Source of the DNA: Lutibacter citreus
Lineage (GTDB): Bacteria > Bacteroidota > Bacteroidia > Flavobacteriales > Flavobacteriaceae
Length of the DNA stretch: 64,000 bases
Direction of reading: 5' to 3'
Assembly: GCF_003260195.1 (NCBI RefSeq)
Contig: NZ_QEIH01000009.1
Span: 62,001 to 126,000 of the forward strand
Below are positions 60,597 through 64,000 of the stretch, one piece after another. Below the pieces are notes generated by a model. That model was not told the DNA's origin and searched no databases. It saw only the letters and a list, made by a program, of their open reading frames with translations. Position numbers and translations under genes: made by a program. Position 1 is the stretch's first letter. Each line of letters starts with the position of its first letter.

Positions 60597-61964
60597 TTAA
60601 AATTTACCGGTTTTTGATAGTTTAAGGAATCCTCCCAAATTATTAGGTAAGAAGTCTCCAAGATCGCCTGTTGCTCCAAAAGAAATATCAAATGGAAAAT
60701 TATTCTTTTTGTAATTTAATTCTAAATAAGGAGAAAATTGGTTTTTATTTATTGGAGTATTAAAACTTCCAGCATATTTAGTGTAAGTTAAATTTGCTTT
60801 GTATTCAATATCTGGATGCACATATCCTTTAAAACCAAAATTAAAGGAAGTGAATCTATTTTGAGCTATTCCAAGAGTTACATCATCAATAGAAGTTTTT
60901 GGAACAAAAAATGGGGATCCAATTGTATTTCCAAAATATGTCCATCCACTTTTATAAATAGAATTATTAAAATAATTGTCAATTAAGCCATGTAGAGAGG
61001 TTGATTTACCCTGATGTTTGGTGTATTGGAACTCTGTTATAATATGTGTAATAATACTTTTGGGCTTTTTTAAGTCAAAAAACAGGCCGTATAAAGCATC
61101 GGGGTAGTTGGATAATTCTCTACCTGAAGCATCTTCAAAAGGATGTGACAAATAAAAACTCCAATTTAAATTCGTTCCTTGGTGGTCTAATTGAATCTGG
61201 TAATTTCCAATATGGTTACCTAATGCATTAATTTGCTCTCCAGAGTTGGAGAGTTCACCACCTGCACTACCTGATATAACTTTAAGATAGTCACTAAAAC
61301 TAGAAGGTTGTTTTCCATACTCTTCGGAGGTTCCTCCCCATTGAACATAATGATCTAATCCTGTTGTTAAAGTAAAGGTATTACTTAGTTTAGATTTAAA
61401 ATACAAGCTTTTATGATGAAGATGTGCATTGTCTACTGCTCGTTTATCGTTTAAAATATATTCCGCATAATTAACTTTAGCGCTTAACCAATTTTTGGCG
61501 AATGGTAGTTTAAAATAGTTTTTTGTTTTAATGTTAATCCCTGGAATTGCTCTCGCATTAATAGATTTAATAATATTTCCATTTGAAACGGATAAGCCTT
61601 CAAAAAGAATTTCATCGTTTTTGCTTCCAATATCCATTTGAATATTTTTAAAAAGAAGACTTCCATAAAGTTCATTTATAAGTATATCATTCTTGTCTGC
61701 AATATAACCAGTAACTGAAGCTTTGTAAGAAAACTTAAATAAGTCATTTGAATCTTTAAAATCTGAAAAAATTGCGGTGTTTAATAAAACATTGTTATTG
61801 TTTGGTACGGCACCAAATTTATTTGCTCTTAAGAAAAAAGGAAGTGTTTCTTTTGCAGATACATTAGAACTTAATTCAACTAAATAATTTTGAGATTGCA
61901 TTTGAGAGATTACAAACAATATAAAAATTGAATTAGTTAAACCTTTAATGAATGTTTTCTTCAT
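60597..61964 (-). CDS. Capsule assembly Wzi family outer-membrane protein
   Basis: The 455-residue protein has a signal peptide ending near MQSQ, then repeated beta-strand segments fitting a barrel. Features include LPFFLRANKFG near the start, a long GLDHYVQWGGTSEEYG region and NWSFYLSHPFEDASGRE, all resembling Bacteroidota Wzi-type proteins. E. coli Wzi holds capsule to the cell surface. A -7-like box on the minus strand (TAACTTTG, 61991-61984) lies 20 bases upstream. Confidence 0.85.
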   Translation of the reverse strand: MKKTFIKGLTNSIFILFVISQMQSQNYLVELSSNVSAKETLPFFLRANKFGAVPNNNNVLLNTAIFSDFKDSNDLFKFSYKASVTGYIADKNDILINELYGSLLFKNIQMDIGSKNDEILFEGLSVSNGNIIKSINARAIPGINIKTKNYFKLPFAKNWLSAKVNYAEYILNDKRAVDNAHLHHKSLYFKSKLSNTFTLTTGLDHYVQWGGTSEEYGKQPSSFSDYLKVISGSAGGELSNSGEQINALGNHIGNYQIQLDHQGTNLNWSFYLSHPFEDASGRELSNYPDALYGLFFDLKKPKSIITHIITEFQYTKHQGKSTSLHGLIDNYFNNSIYKSGWTYFGNTIGSPFFVPKTSIDDVTLGIAQNRFTSFNFGFKGYVHPDIEYKANLTYTKYAGSFNTPINKNQFSPYLELNYKKNNFPFDISFGATGDLGDFLPNNLGGFLKLSKTGKF

Positions 61965-62161
61965 AGTAAACTGTATAAAAAAGCAAAGTTAATTAAAATT
62001 AAAGTAGAATTTTAGAACAATCTGTTTGATTACAACGAGTTGTTCAAATGTATATTGTTTAAAAAATAATGATTTAAATTGTGTTTTTCATTAAAAAAAA
62101 TCGCATATAGCTATTATTTTTTAATTTTTGTATTGAGGGTGAATGTTTTTTATAAAAATGA

Positions 62162-62191
62162 TTGATGTTTTAAATATTATGTATAAATTTG
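62162..62191 (+). promoter_or_regulatory. Promoter of the pheA leader
   Basis: TTG at 62162-62164 and TAAATTTG at 62184-62191 are separated by 19 bases, a good Bacteroidota promoter. The leader peptide starts 20 bases after the -7 box. Together with the attenuator this accounts for the 61965-62355 gap. Confidence 0.75.
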
Positions 62192-62210
62192 GGCTCATAT
62201 TTAACGAATT

Positions 62211-62273
62211 ATGATAACAAATAACACTTGGAATAGCTTCTATTTTTACTTTTATTTTAACAATAAGAGATGA
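62211..62273 (+). CDS. Phe/Tyr-rich leader peptide of the pheA attenuator
   Basis: ATG at 62211 opens 20 codons ending with TGA at 62271-62273. Seven codons in a row read Phe-Tyr-Phe-Tyr-Phe-Tyr-Phe (62238-62258), after MITNNTWNS and before NNKR. Such a run of the amino acids made by the downstream operon is the signature of a regulatory leader peptide. The stop codon lies at the start of the antiterminator arm. The alternation suggests response to both Phe and Tyr supply. Confidence 0.85.
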   Translation: MITNNTWNSFYFYFYFNNKR

Positions 62274-62339
62274 GGCTTTGTATGTGTTAGTTAAAAATAT
62301 AAATTATAAAGTCTCGAAATTATTTCGAGATTTTTTTTT
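62271..62339 (+). terminator. Attenuator: antiterminator and terminator hairpins
   Basis: The terminator pairs TCTCGAAA (62312-62319) with TTTCGAGA (62323-62330) around TTA, followed by nine T residues (62331-62339), 16 bases before pheA. An alternative 12-pair stem joins 62271-62282 (TGAGGCTTTGTA) with 62305-62316 (TATAAAGTCTCG), with three G-U pairs, and uses up the 5' arm of the terminator. A ribosome stalled on the Phe/Tyr codons leaves the first arm free, allowing read-through; one at the stop codon covers it, so the terminator forms. Confidence 0.85.
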
Positions 62340-62355
62340 GATAATTACTGAATAA

Positions 62356-63174
62356 ATGAAAGTAGCAATACAAGGAATAAAAGGATCATTCCACCACATA
62401 GTGGCTGAGGAATATTTCGGTAAAAATATAGATTTACTTGAGTGTTTATCTTTTACTGAAATGCCTGCATTATTAGAAGATAATAAAGCAGATGTATTGA
62501 TTATGGCTATTGAAAATTCAATTGCAGGTGCAATACTACCAAATTACGCACTTATTGATGACCATAAATTAACAATATGCGGAGAATTTCATTTGTCAAT
62601 TCATCATAATTTAATGGCGCTTAATGGGCAGTCTATTGAAGATATTAAAGAAGTATATTCACATCCTATGGCACTATTACAGTGTCATAAATTTTTTAAA
62701 GACTATCCACACATTAAATTAATTGAAGATGAAGATACTGCATCTGTAGCAAAAAGAATTCAAGATAATAAATTAATGGGTGTTGGAGCTATAGCAAGTA
62801 ATTTGGCTGCTGAAACCTATAAATTGGATATTTTAGCATCAGACATTCAAACAATTAAAGAAAATGCTACTCGTTTTTTTATTTTAACAAATAACCAAGA
62901 TAAAAGTAGTGTTTCAGCTAATAAAGCTTCAATTAAATTTATTACAAGTCATGATACTGGAAGTTTGGCAGAAATTTTAACCATGTTAGCAAAGCACGGT
63001 TTAAATTTATCTAAAATTCAATCAATGCCGGTGATAGATACTCTTTGGAAATATTCATTTTTTGCAGATGTTGTTTTTACAAGTTATGCAGACTATTTTG
63101 ATGCTCTTGAAGAGATTAGAGAGAAGGTAGAAGCACTGGAAATATTAGGAGAATACAATAAAGGAAAAAGATAA
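62356..63174 (+). CDS. pheA: Prephenate dehydratase
   Basis: The 272-residue protein has a type-2 periplasmic-binding-like catalytic domain with the TRF motif (Thr172-Arg173-Phe174 in ENATRFFIL) and a C-terminal ACT domain (about 195-270; HDTGSLAEILTMLAKHGLNL). It makes phenylpyruvate from prephenate. The ESRP Phe-binding motif of many ACT domains reads IQSMP here, so feedback by Phe may be altered. It is preceded by a Phe/Tyr attenuator and overlaps the aminotransferase gene by one base. Confidence 0.95.
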   Translation: MKVAIQGIKGSFHHIVAEEYFGKNIDLLECLSFTEMPALLEDNKADVLIMAIENSIAGAILPNYALIDDHKLTICGEFHLSIHHNLMALNGQSIEDIKEVYSHPMALLQCHKFFKDYPHIKLIEDEDTASVAKRIQDNKLMGVGAIASNLAAETYKLDILASDIQTIKENATRFFILTNNQDKSSVSANKASIKFITSHDTGSLAEILTMLAKHGLNLSKIQSMPVIDTLWKYSFFADVVFTSYADYFDALEEIREKVEALEILGEYNKGKR

Positions 63175-64000
63175 TGATACAAAAAGCTGACAGATTAGGA
63201 AGTGTTAAAGAATACTACTTTTCAAAAAAATTAAGAGAAGTAGCAGCTTTAAGAAGTGAAGGGAAACCAATTATAAATATAGCTATTGGGAGTCCAGATT
63301 TACAACCACCATTAAGCGTTGTTAACGCATTGCAAAGCGCGGTTGAATTACCAAATGCACATCAATATCAAAGTTATCAAGGTATTCCAGAATTAAGAGA
63401 AGGAATGTGTAATTTTTATAAAGAAAAATACAATGTTTCTTTAGATATGAATACTGAAGTGCTTCCTTTAATGGGATCTAAAGAAGGTATCATGCATATT
63501 TCTATGGCTTTTTTAAATAAAGGAGATAAGGTGTTAATTCCTAATCCAGGATATCCAACATATGCATCTGTAACTAATTTAGTGCAAGCTGAAGCTATTA
63601 ATTACGATTTAAATGAGGCGGGAAATTGGCTGCCAGATTTTGATGCATTAGAAAAAGAAGATTTAAAGAATACGAAAATAATGTGGGTAAATTACCCTCA
63701 TATGCCAACTGGTGCCGTGGCAAGTAAAGAAGATTTTAAGAAATTAATTGCGTTTGCAAAAAAACATGAGATACTTATTGTAAATGACAATCCGTATAGT
63801 TTTATTTTACATAAAAATCCGTTAAGTATTTTAGAAGTTGAAGGAGGAAAAGAAGTTGCTATAGAGTTAAATTCTTTAAGTAAAACCTTTAATATGGCAG
63901 GTTGGCGTGTAGGAATGGTTGTTGGTGATGCAGAAATTATTAAAACGATTTTACAAGTAAAAAGTAATATGGATTCTGGAATGTTTTTAGGAATTCAAAA
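63174..64000 (+). CDS. Class I/II aminotransferase, 5' part
   Basis: The frame from ATG at 63174 stays open to the window end (275 codons). It has IGSPDLQPPLSVVNAL near the start, SYQGIPELREGM, NPGYPTYASV, a PHMPTGAVAS segment and the PLP lysine in SLSKTFNMAGWRVGM. Directly after pheA, it probably acts in Phe/Tyr synthesis as an aromatic or aspartate-type transaminase. The C-terminal portion is outside the window. Confidence 0.9.
   Translation, partial: MIQKADRLGSVKEYYFSKKLREVAALRSEGKPIINIAIGSPDLQPPLSVVNALQSAVELPNAHQYQSYQGIPELREGMCNFYKEKYNVSLDMNTEVLPLMGSKEGIMHISMAFLNKGDKVLIPNPGYPTYASVTNLVQAEAINYDLNEAGNWLPDFDALEKEDLKNTKIMWVNYPHMPTGAVASKEDFKKLIAFAKKHEILIVNDNPYSFILHKNPLSILEVEGGKEVAIELNSLSKTFNMAGWRVGMVVGDAEIIKTILQVKSNMDSGMFLGIQ

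Follow-up and report, generated by a model that had tools for sequence, protein, structure and literature searches.

The element described here is most closely related in design to the pheA (pheL) attenuator of Gammaproteobacteria, RF01859 in Rfam, with which it shares an aromatic leader peptide and alternative antiterminator and terminator structures ahead of pheA. The pheL leader itself is rich in Phe and free of Tyr, and the leader of the pheST (pheM) attenuator is likewise Phe-rich, although the latter controls a tRNA synthetase operon and not a biosynthetic one. Precedents for a single leader that serves several amino acids of a shared operon are the ilvGMEDA, ilvBN and thr attenuators of enterobacteria, whose leaders hold codons for more than one amino acid; these, however, sense branched-chain amino acids or Thr and Ile, and do so in a different phylum. 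The ilvGMEDA, ilvBN and thr operons are named in PMC1183508, pheST is given as a classical attenuator of gamma-proteobacteria in PMC1262725, and his attenuation is treated in general terms in PMC8305728. In 2010, the authors of PMC2965389 stated that, before their own Firmicutes case and with the atypical ermC aside, no leader-peptide system was known beyond Proteobacteria and Actinobacteria.

Closer to home, long 5' UTRs with short ORFs reminiscent of leader peptides were noted in B. thetaiotaomicron (PMC7366714); unlike our case, the named example there is the hypothetical gene BT_4401 and not pheA, and the passages concerned show no mechanism. For F. psychrophilum, PMC9723704 reports clues that leader peptides attenuate amino-acid operons, and it counts a pheA 5' element among the structured elements that are conserved in other Flavobacteriaceae genera and have no Rfam hits. 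As this is the same gene in the same family, the pheA element itself is not new, and the novelty suggested in an earlier note on this DNA has to be softened accordingly. In the passages of PMC9723704 on this element, neither the leader sequence nor its Phe/Tyr content is given, and segments and occurrence outside the family are likewise absent, though its tables may hold more; set against those passages, what appears to be new is the Phe/Tyr design, the segments and their geometry, the occurrence in other orders and a tandem, Phe-only case. Among the matches listed from the open-licence literature, no paper describes a Phe/Tyr leader in Bacteroidota.

The pheA element in our window (the whole 64-kb stretch of DNA that was analysed) is real, well supported and of classic design. 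It differs from pheL in that the leaders of this group mix Phe with Tyr codons, and in that the operon adds an aminotransferase, tyrA and DAHP synthase/chorismate mutase. Its parts are as follows:

62162-62191, plus strand: putative Bacteroidetes-type promoter, read from the sequence, with TTG at 62162-62164 (presumably the -33 element), then 19 nt, then TAAATTTG at 62184-62191, which fits TAnnTTTG
62211-62273, plus strand: leader ORF MITNNTWNSFYFYFYFNNKR of 20 codons, read from the sequence, with seven consecutive Phe/Tyr codons at 62238-62258 and the stop codon TGA at 62271-62273
62223-62240, plus strand: segment 1, within codons N-T-W-N-S-F, which pairs with segment 2 as a protector (MFE folds, covariation, swap test)
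62249-62269, plus strand: apical hairpin of the 1:2 protector, Phe/Tyr codons 62249-62256 against Asn-Lys-Arg codons 62262-62269 (RNAalifold consensus)
62272-62288, plus strand: segment 2, the switch strand, partner of segment 1 or segment 3, starting inside the leader stop codon (folds)
62305-62319, plus strand: segment 3, comprising the antiterminator 3' arm (62305-62315) and the terminator 5' arm (62308-62319) (folds)
62323 to about 62340, plus strand: segment 4 (62323-62334) and U tract, an intrinsic terminator together with segment 3
62356-63174, plus strand: pheA, prephenate dehydratase with ACT domain, first gene of the operon (Pfam PF00800, PF01842)
63174-64000, plus strand: class I/II aminotransferase, second gene of the operon, extending beyond the window (Pfam PF00155)

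The leader, with its aromatic codons TTC TAT TTT TAC TTT TAT TTT, and the terminator had both been pointed out before and can be read directly. The terminator stem (62308-62319/62323-62334) has 12 pairs, a loop of 3 and a T tract to about 62339, 16 bases after which the pheA ATG follows at 62356; it folds at -11.4 kcal/mol (z -4.2), with 1 of 200 shuffles equally good. An intrinsic terminator thus stands between the leader and the first gene, and since the sole gene listed upstream (ORFs of at least 80 aa) is on the minus strand, at 60597-61964, it does not belong to the end of another plus-strand gene lying before it. The short leader ORF codes for amino acids that the operon makes (pheA, tyrA). 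Its FYFYFYF is the only F/Y run of at least seven residues anywhere in the six translated frames of the window; dinucleotide shuffling produced 2 in total in a first set of 20 and, in a second set of 20, none with at least three Tyr.

Folding reveals a further stem, missed by the earlier note. The 147-nt leader (z -4.1, 0/200 shuffles) folds as a long, interrupted 1:2 stem with an apical hairpin, plus the terminator, which provides a protector or pause stem overlapping the regulatory codons. When segment 1 is omitted from the fold, segment 2 pairs with segment 3 instead, across the 5' arm of the terminator. The core of this alternative stem (62272-62282/62305-62315) has 11 pairs and grows to 17 when 62272-62330 is folded (-13.8 kcal/mol, z -3.7, 0/200 shuffles). 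Positions 62308-62315 are common to the 2:3 stem and the terminator, so that antiterminator and terminator exclude each other. This second stem is the one that the earlier note had seen.

The best explanation, to which we would give a probability of roughly 90%, is a four-segment ribosome-mediated transcription attenuator of the pheA-aminotransferase-tyrA-DAHP synthase/chorismate mutase operon. This is the reading of the earlier note as well, and it is supported by conservation of leader, stems and geometry. How stalling, switching and OR logic would work together we infer as follows. Transcription would start about 15 nt before the leader. With ample Phe-tRNA and Tyr-tRNA, the ribosome would reach the stop codon and cover segment 2, leaving segments 3 and 4 to form the terminator. 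If Phe or Tyr ran short, it would stall on one of the seven aromatic codons, blocking segment 1 and setting segment 2 free; the latter would then form the antiterminator with segment 3, and RNA polymerase would enter pheA. Were the leader not translated at all, the 1:2 protector would form and the terminator with it. Since a stall at any aromatic codon should free segment 2, a shortage of either amino acid should be sensed and would relieve termination, amounting to an OR gate.

How widely the element recurs bears directly on whether it could be fortuitous. One genome scan gave 57 close pheA loci. Of these, 24 carry the name Lutibacter, as does the best relative (86% identity), so that the window is probably Lutibacter DNA, and the phylum name Bacteroidota follows from this. 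A Phe/Tyr-rich leader followed by a terminator precedes pheA in all 56 with upstream sequence (L055 has none), as in the window. Lack of conservation, named beforehand as an outcome that would speak against the attenuator, was looked for, and leader and terminator do recur. A wider set came from PF00800 searches of two overlapping collections, 148 genomes from the phylum and 98 from the order, with 119 further loci, a subset of the matches, being scanned under thresholds of our own (ORF of 8-50 codons, hairpin with T tract, at most 500 nt before the PF00800 match). Leader and terminator are present in 40 of the 119: in 16/16 loci of the own family (17/17 counting the window), in 8/35 of other families of the order (8/8 in f34, f35, f39 and f45), in 13/16 of other orders of the class and in 3/52 outside the class. 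The weakest positive (L149) has 5 aromatic residues in 9. In the same scan, the pair is absent from families f2 (0/15), f46 (0/11, all in small genomes) and f42 (0/1), and from 49/52 loci outside the class, where several PF00800 frames are 670-740 aa long and the scanned stretch may be coding. Loci without it include L090-L098 in f2 and L099, L100, L102, L105, L107-L109, L111, L112, L116 and L117 in f46; two of the latter, L102 and L112, have a short ORF dense in F/Y and no terminator. Perhaps the element was lost in f2 and f46, or pheA belongs to another operon there.

R1, a model of the element that has the window in its training set, gives the window 118 bits and the runner-up in the genome 44.7. 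The next places in the same genome (at most 44.7 bits; L180-L182 examined) resemble ordinary terminators that follow other genes, and so do the R1 matches L212 and L213 in f2. Because of this resemblance, R1 matches below about 50 bits are left uncounted and the 37 of 196 genomes with a match are not to be taken as a prevalence. Nor does R1 find every copy: it has no match in 12 of the 30 genomes from the own family, among them five that bear a leader by scan (G021, G068, G084, G222, G227), and the matches in G025, G057 and G142 lie away from pheA. A chance meeting of a terminator and a random ORF in an AT-rich stretch might be invited by the low GC content at the element (22%), but conservation and the distance between the two R1 scores make such a coincidence vanishingly improbable.

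In a number of relatives, mostly Lutibacter MAGs, the gap between terminator and pheA holds additional units, each some 90 nt long and carrying ATGCG and CGCAT motifs (L009:2821-3000, L005:1691-1869; inspection by eye adds L006, L008, L011, L015 and L026). L009 has two tandem copies that are 81% alike, and in L006 a repeat was not detected. Perhaps these units are a small repeat element.

The 57 close sequences (window included) and the 40 wide ones make up a set of 97, in which the close and wide loci may have species in common. Although we chose leaders on F+Y density alone, both Phe and Tyr occur within a 9-codon run in 97/97. Of the 873 run codons, Phe accounts for 421, Tyr for 276, and Leu and Ile for 3 each; with so few Leu codons, the aromatic run is not mere U-richness.

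The putative promoter of the window, TTG plus TAnnTTTG, can be read in its sequence, and its second element is enriched across the loci. TAnnTTTG, named as the -7 box of F. psychrophilum in PMC9723704, lies within 70 nt 5' of the leader start at 64 of 96 loci, against 9.9 expected from shuffles (1 of the 97 was left out, its upstream sequence being too short), and in the loci scanned it is mostly 14-21 nt from the leader start. A scan for E. coli-type sigma-70 promoters found no excess (12 vs 16.3 expected), this promoter type being outside the scan's consensus. Shine-Dalgarno sequences, according to PMC9723704, are lacking in this group.

The spacing of codons and stems is what ribosome control would lead one to expect. 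Segment 2 as placed by folding starts 7-14 nt past the last aromatic codon in 93 of the 97 sequences, whereas the distance from that codon to the stop codon ranges from 6 to 39 nt; the kept distance thus appears to be the one from the codons to the switch strand and not to the stop codon. With a ribosome covering 12 nt downstream (PMC4833913), segment 2 stays free for stalls at two or more of the aromatic codons in 97/97, and at all seven in the window; at the stop codon, such a ribosome would hide half or more of the first 8 nt of segment 2 in 77/97, not all. A constitutive 5' element, in which translation of a short ORF and leakiness of the terminator do no more than lower pheA expression and nothing is sensed, would have no need for a conserved aromatic run, a kept distance from run to segment 2 or alternative stems, and we consider it very unlikely.

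As for the stems, the evidence differs between them. On an alignment (A1) of the 56 close loci and the window, 97.9% of terminator cells are paired, and both this figure and the covariation score exceed those of all 500 column shuffles, which do not preserve relatedness, and of slid registers; further pair types do not stand out (488/500 shuffles). The 1:2 stem with its apical hairpin (86.5% paired) likewise exceeds all 500 shuffles and the slid registers on both measures, and its pairs changed on both sides do not stand out (29/500). The apical hairpin has 92.4% of its cells paired and some compensatory changes in the RNAalifold consensus. On the other hand, the 2:3 stem is not above column shuffles on A1 (76.6% vs 76.4% paired, 202/500; covariation score 91/500), since its core is nearly invariant in most of A1 and some divergent rows seem misregistered at segment 2. 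Its register nonetheless comes first among seven, both in cells paired and in score, slid registers reaching at most 53.3% of cells. The earlier note had proposed to look for compensatory changes in the terminator and in the alternative stem; the former covaries beyond shuffles by covariation score, and the latter does not. In short, the 1:2 and 3:4 stems covary, and the 2:3 stem rests on alignment-free tests.

In those tests, the antiterminator is predicted in 97/97 sequences, and spacer plus segment 3 fold with z at or below -2 in 87/97. The 2:3 duplex beats dinucleotide-shuffled spacers (p<=0.05) in 86/97 sequences, the 1:2 duplex in only 46/97. Segments were also swapped among 39 representatives with differing segment-3 ends, composition and kinship being uncontrolled: cognate 2:3 duplexes averaged -11.8 against -7.6 kcal/mol for swapped ones, cognate 1:2 duplexes -12.6 against -9.2 kcal/mol, and in neither case were any of 5000 permutations equally good. 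Cognate partners ranked above the median in 37/39 (2:3) and 35/39 (1:2), and in the best tenth in only 21/39 and 17/39, respectively.

As to what the ribosome would sense, a joint Phe/Tyr sensor, as proposed before, fits in that the run codes for both amino acids and the operon makes both; judging from codon content (97/97 leaders) and operon content, we consider this part of the reading probable in its own right. In the same genome the operon runs pheA-aminotransferase-tyrA-DAHP synthase/chorismate mutase, and in L059 the aminotransferase is followed by tyrA (PF02153, PF20463) and then DAHP synthase/chorismate mutase (PF00793, PF01817). All four genes are present in 54 of the 57 close loci and tyrA in 55; the other three comprise one with all but the DAHP synthase, one with pheA and the aminotransferase and one with pheA only. 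The last two are the close loci without tyrA; L047, one of them, stops some 500 bases past pheA, L051 and L041 being short as well. Among the 40 wider operons, tblastn finds tyrA in 31.

Within attenuation, the alternative is a sensor of Phe only, in which Tyr codons are tolerated for the pairing of a U-rich apical hairpin and Tyr stalls are irrelevant. The aromatic codons do pair inside that hairpin, Phe outnumbers Tyr (421 vs 276), and E. coli pheL manages with Phe and no Tyr. Against this, Tyr is in the run of every one of the 97 leaders while Leu and Ile (3 each) are nearly absent, and tyrA accompanies pheA in the great majority of the close and wider loci just counted. One genome, G232, speaks on both sides: it has three tandem attenuators before pheA (L201, G232:C25:18620-19039; also L217), each with leader and terminator, and the runs of the three leaders (MKHITENKAFSFEAFFFNRKTQA, MNNLVSTFRFFGFFFFRKEGAMS and MNQNTQQNFSFFGFFFFKWKSEAVD) have Phe without Tyr, as a Phe sensor would; its operon, however, has no tyrA, and no PF02153 match was found in the genome, which is 83% complete. 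An in-frame ATG seven codons further upstream offers the first leader another start (MYTFVFYMKH...), bringing in two Tyr ahead of the likely one and overlapping the promoter-like site. Phe-only runs together with the absence of tyrA fit a joint sensor, and sensing of Phe only strikes us as the unlikely option.

Tyr codons are not, however, a strict marker of tyrA. We tried them as such among the nine tblastn-negative operons and the rule fails, as six of the nine keep Tyr with tyrA not near pheA. Two (G066, G133) carry a match to PF02153 that lies 2-5 kb downstream of pheA, G002 has tyrA elsewhere in the genome and keeps its Tyr codons, and G057, G080, G099, G122 and G138 keep theirs with PF02153 matches of 28.8 bits at most; the ninth is G232. 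A phenylalanine-hydroxylase-like gene (PF00351), which could make Tyr from Phe, is found in those six genomes and in G232 as well, and so does not separate the two groups. Because the five genomes with weak tyrA matches keep their Tyr codons, the case for a joint sensor falls short of proof.

Any structured 5' UTR with a terminator also calls to mind a tRNA- or metabolite-binding riboswitch, such as a T-box or another Rfam class, or an attenuator bound by a protein. Positions 61500-64000 of the window yield no Rfam family at E<=1, and T-box models are absent at that threshold from this region and from 20 relatives. Those relatives give only 13 sub-threshold matches, the best being Phe_leader (RF01859), which is the top match in 6 of the 20 and falls at the element upstream of pheA; the geometry of the run, moreover, suits ribosome control. 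We therefore regard a riboswitch or protein-bound attenuator as barely plausible. The best relative reaches 39.3 bits against a gathering score of 55 bits for RF01859, and since the six match only below threshold, the pheA attenuator would work like Phe_leader without being a member of it.

Three further elements of the same genome are of related make. The first (C1, L259:764-894) precedes a PF00425 chorismate-binding gene, perhaps trpE, and has the leader MNNSLNMIWWWNSLIK followed by a strong terminator; it is likely a trp attenuator. Before hisG (C31, L257:1183-1305), the leader MLLIQLHHRHHLNTCNQAK is followed by a terminator-like hairpin, likely a his attenuator. Finally, the leader MKLIKIQIVILIQVVIVLIT and a terminator before an ilvD/edd-type gene (C35, L261:1062-1195) constitute a possible branched-chain attenuator.

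Overall, the observations allow a joint reading that we hold to be about an even bet: a single class outside Rfam, old in Bacteroidota as it spans more than one order, with a Phe and Tyr OR gate in one leader, a ruler set by the 7-14 nt from run to switch strand and not by the stop codon, and tandem triplication with loss of Tyr in one lineage without detectable tyrA. If this were true, the Tyr content of the runs would be a readout of the enzymes of the operon. The R1 model and its alignment could seed an Rfam family. Furthermore, the presence of a Phe/Tyr attenuator beyond a single order of Bacteroidota, along with the candidate trp, his and perhaps branched-chain ones, would make ribosome-sensed attenuation a general means of controlling amino-acid synthesis in this group.
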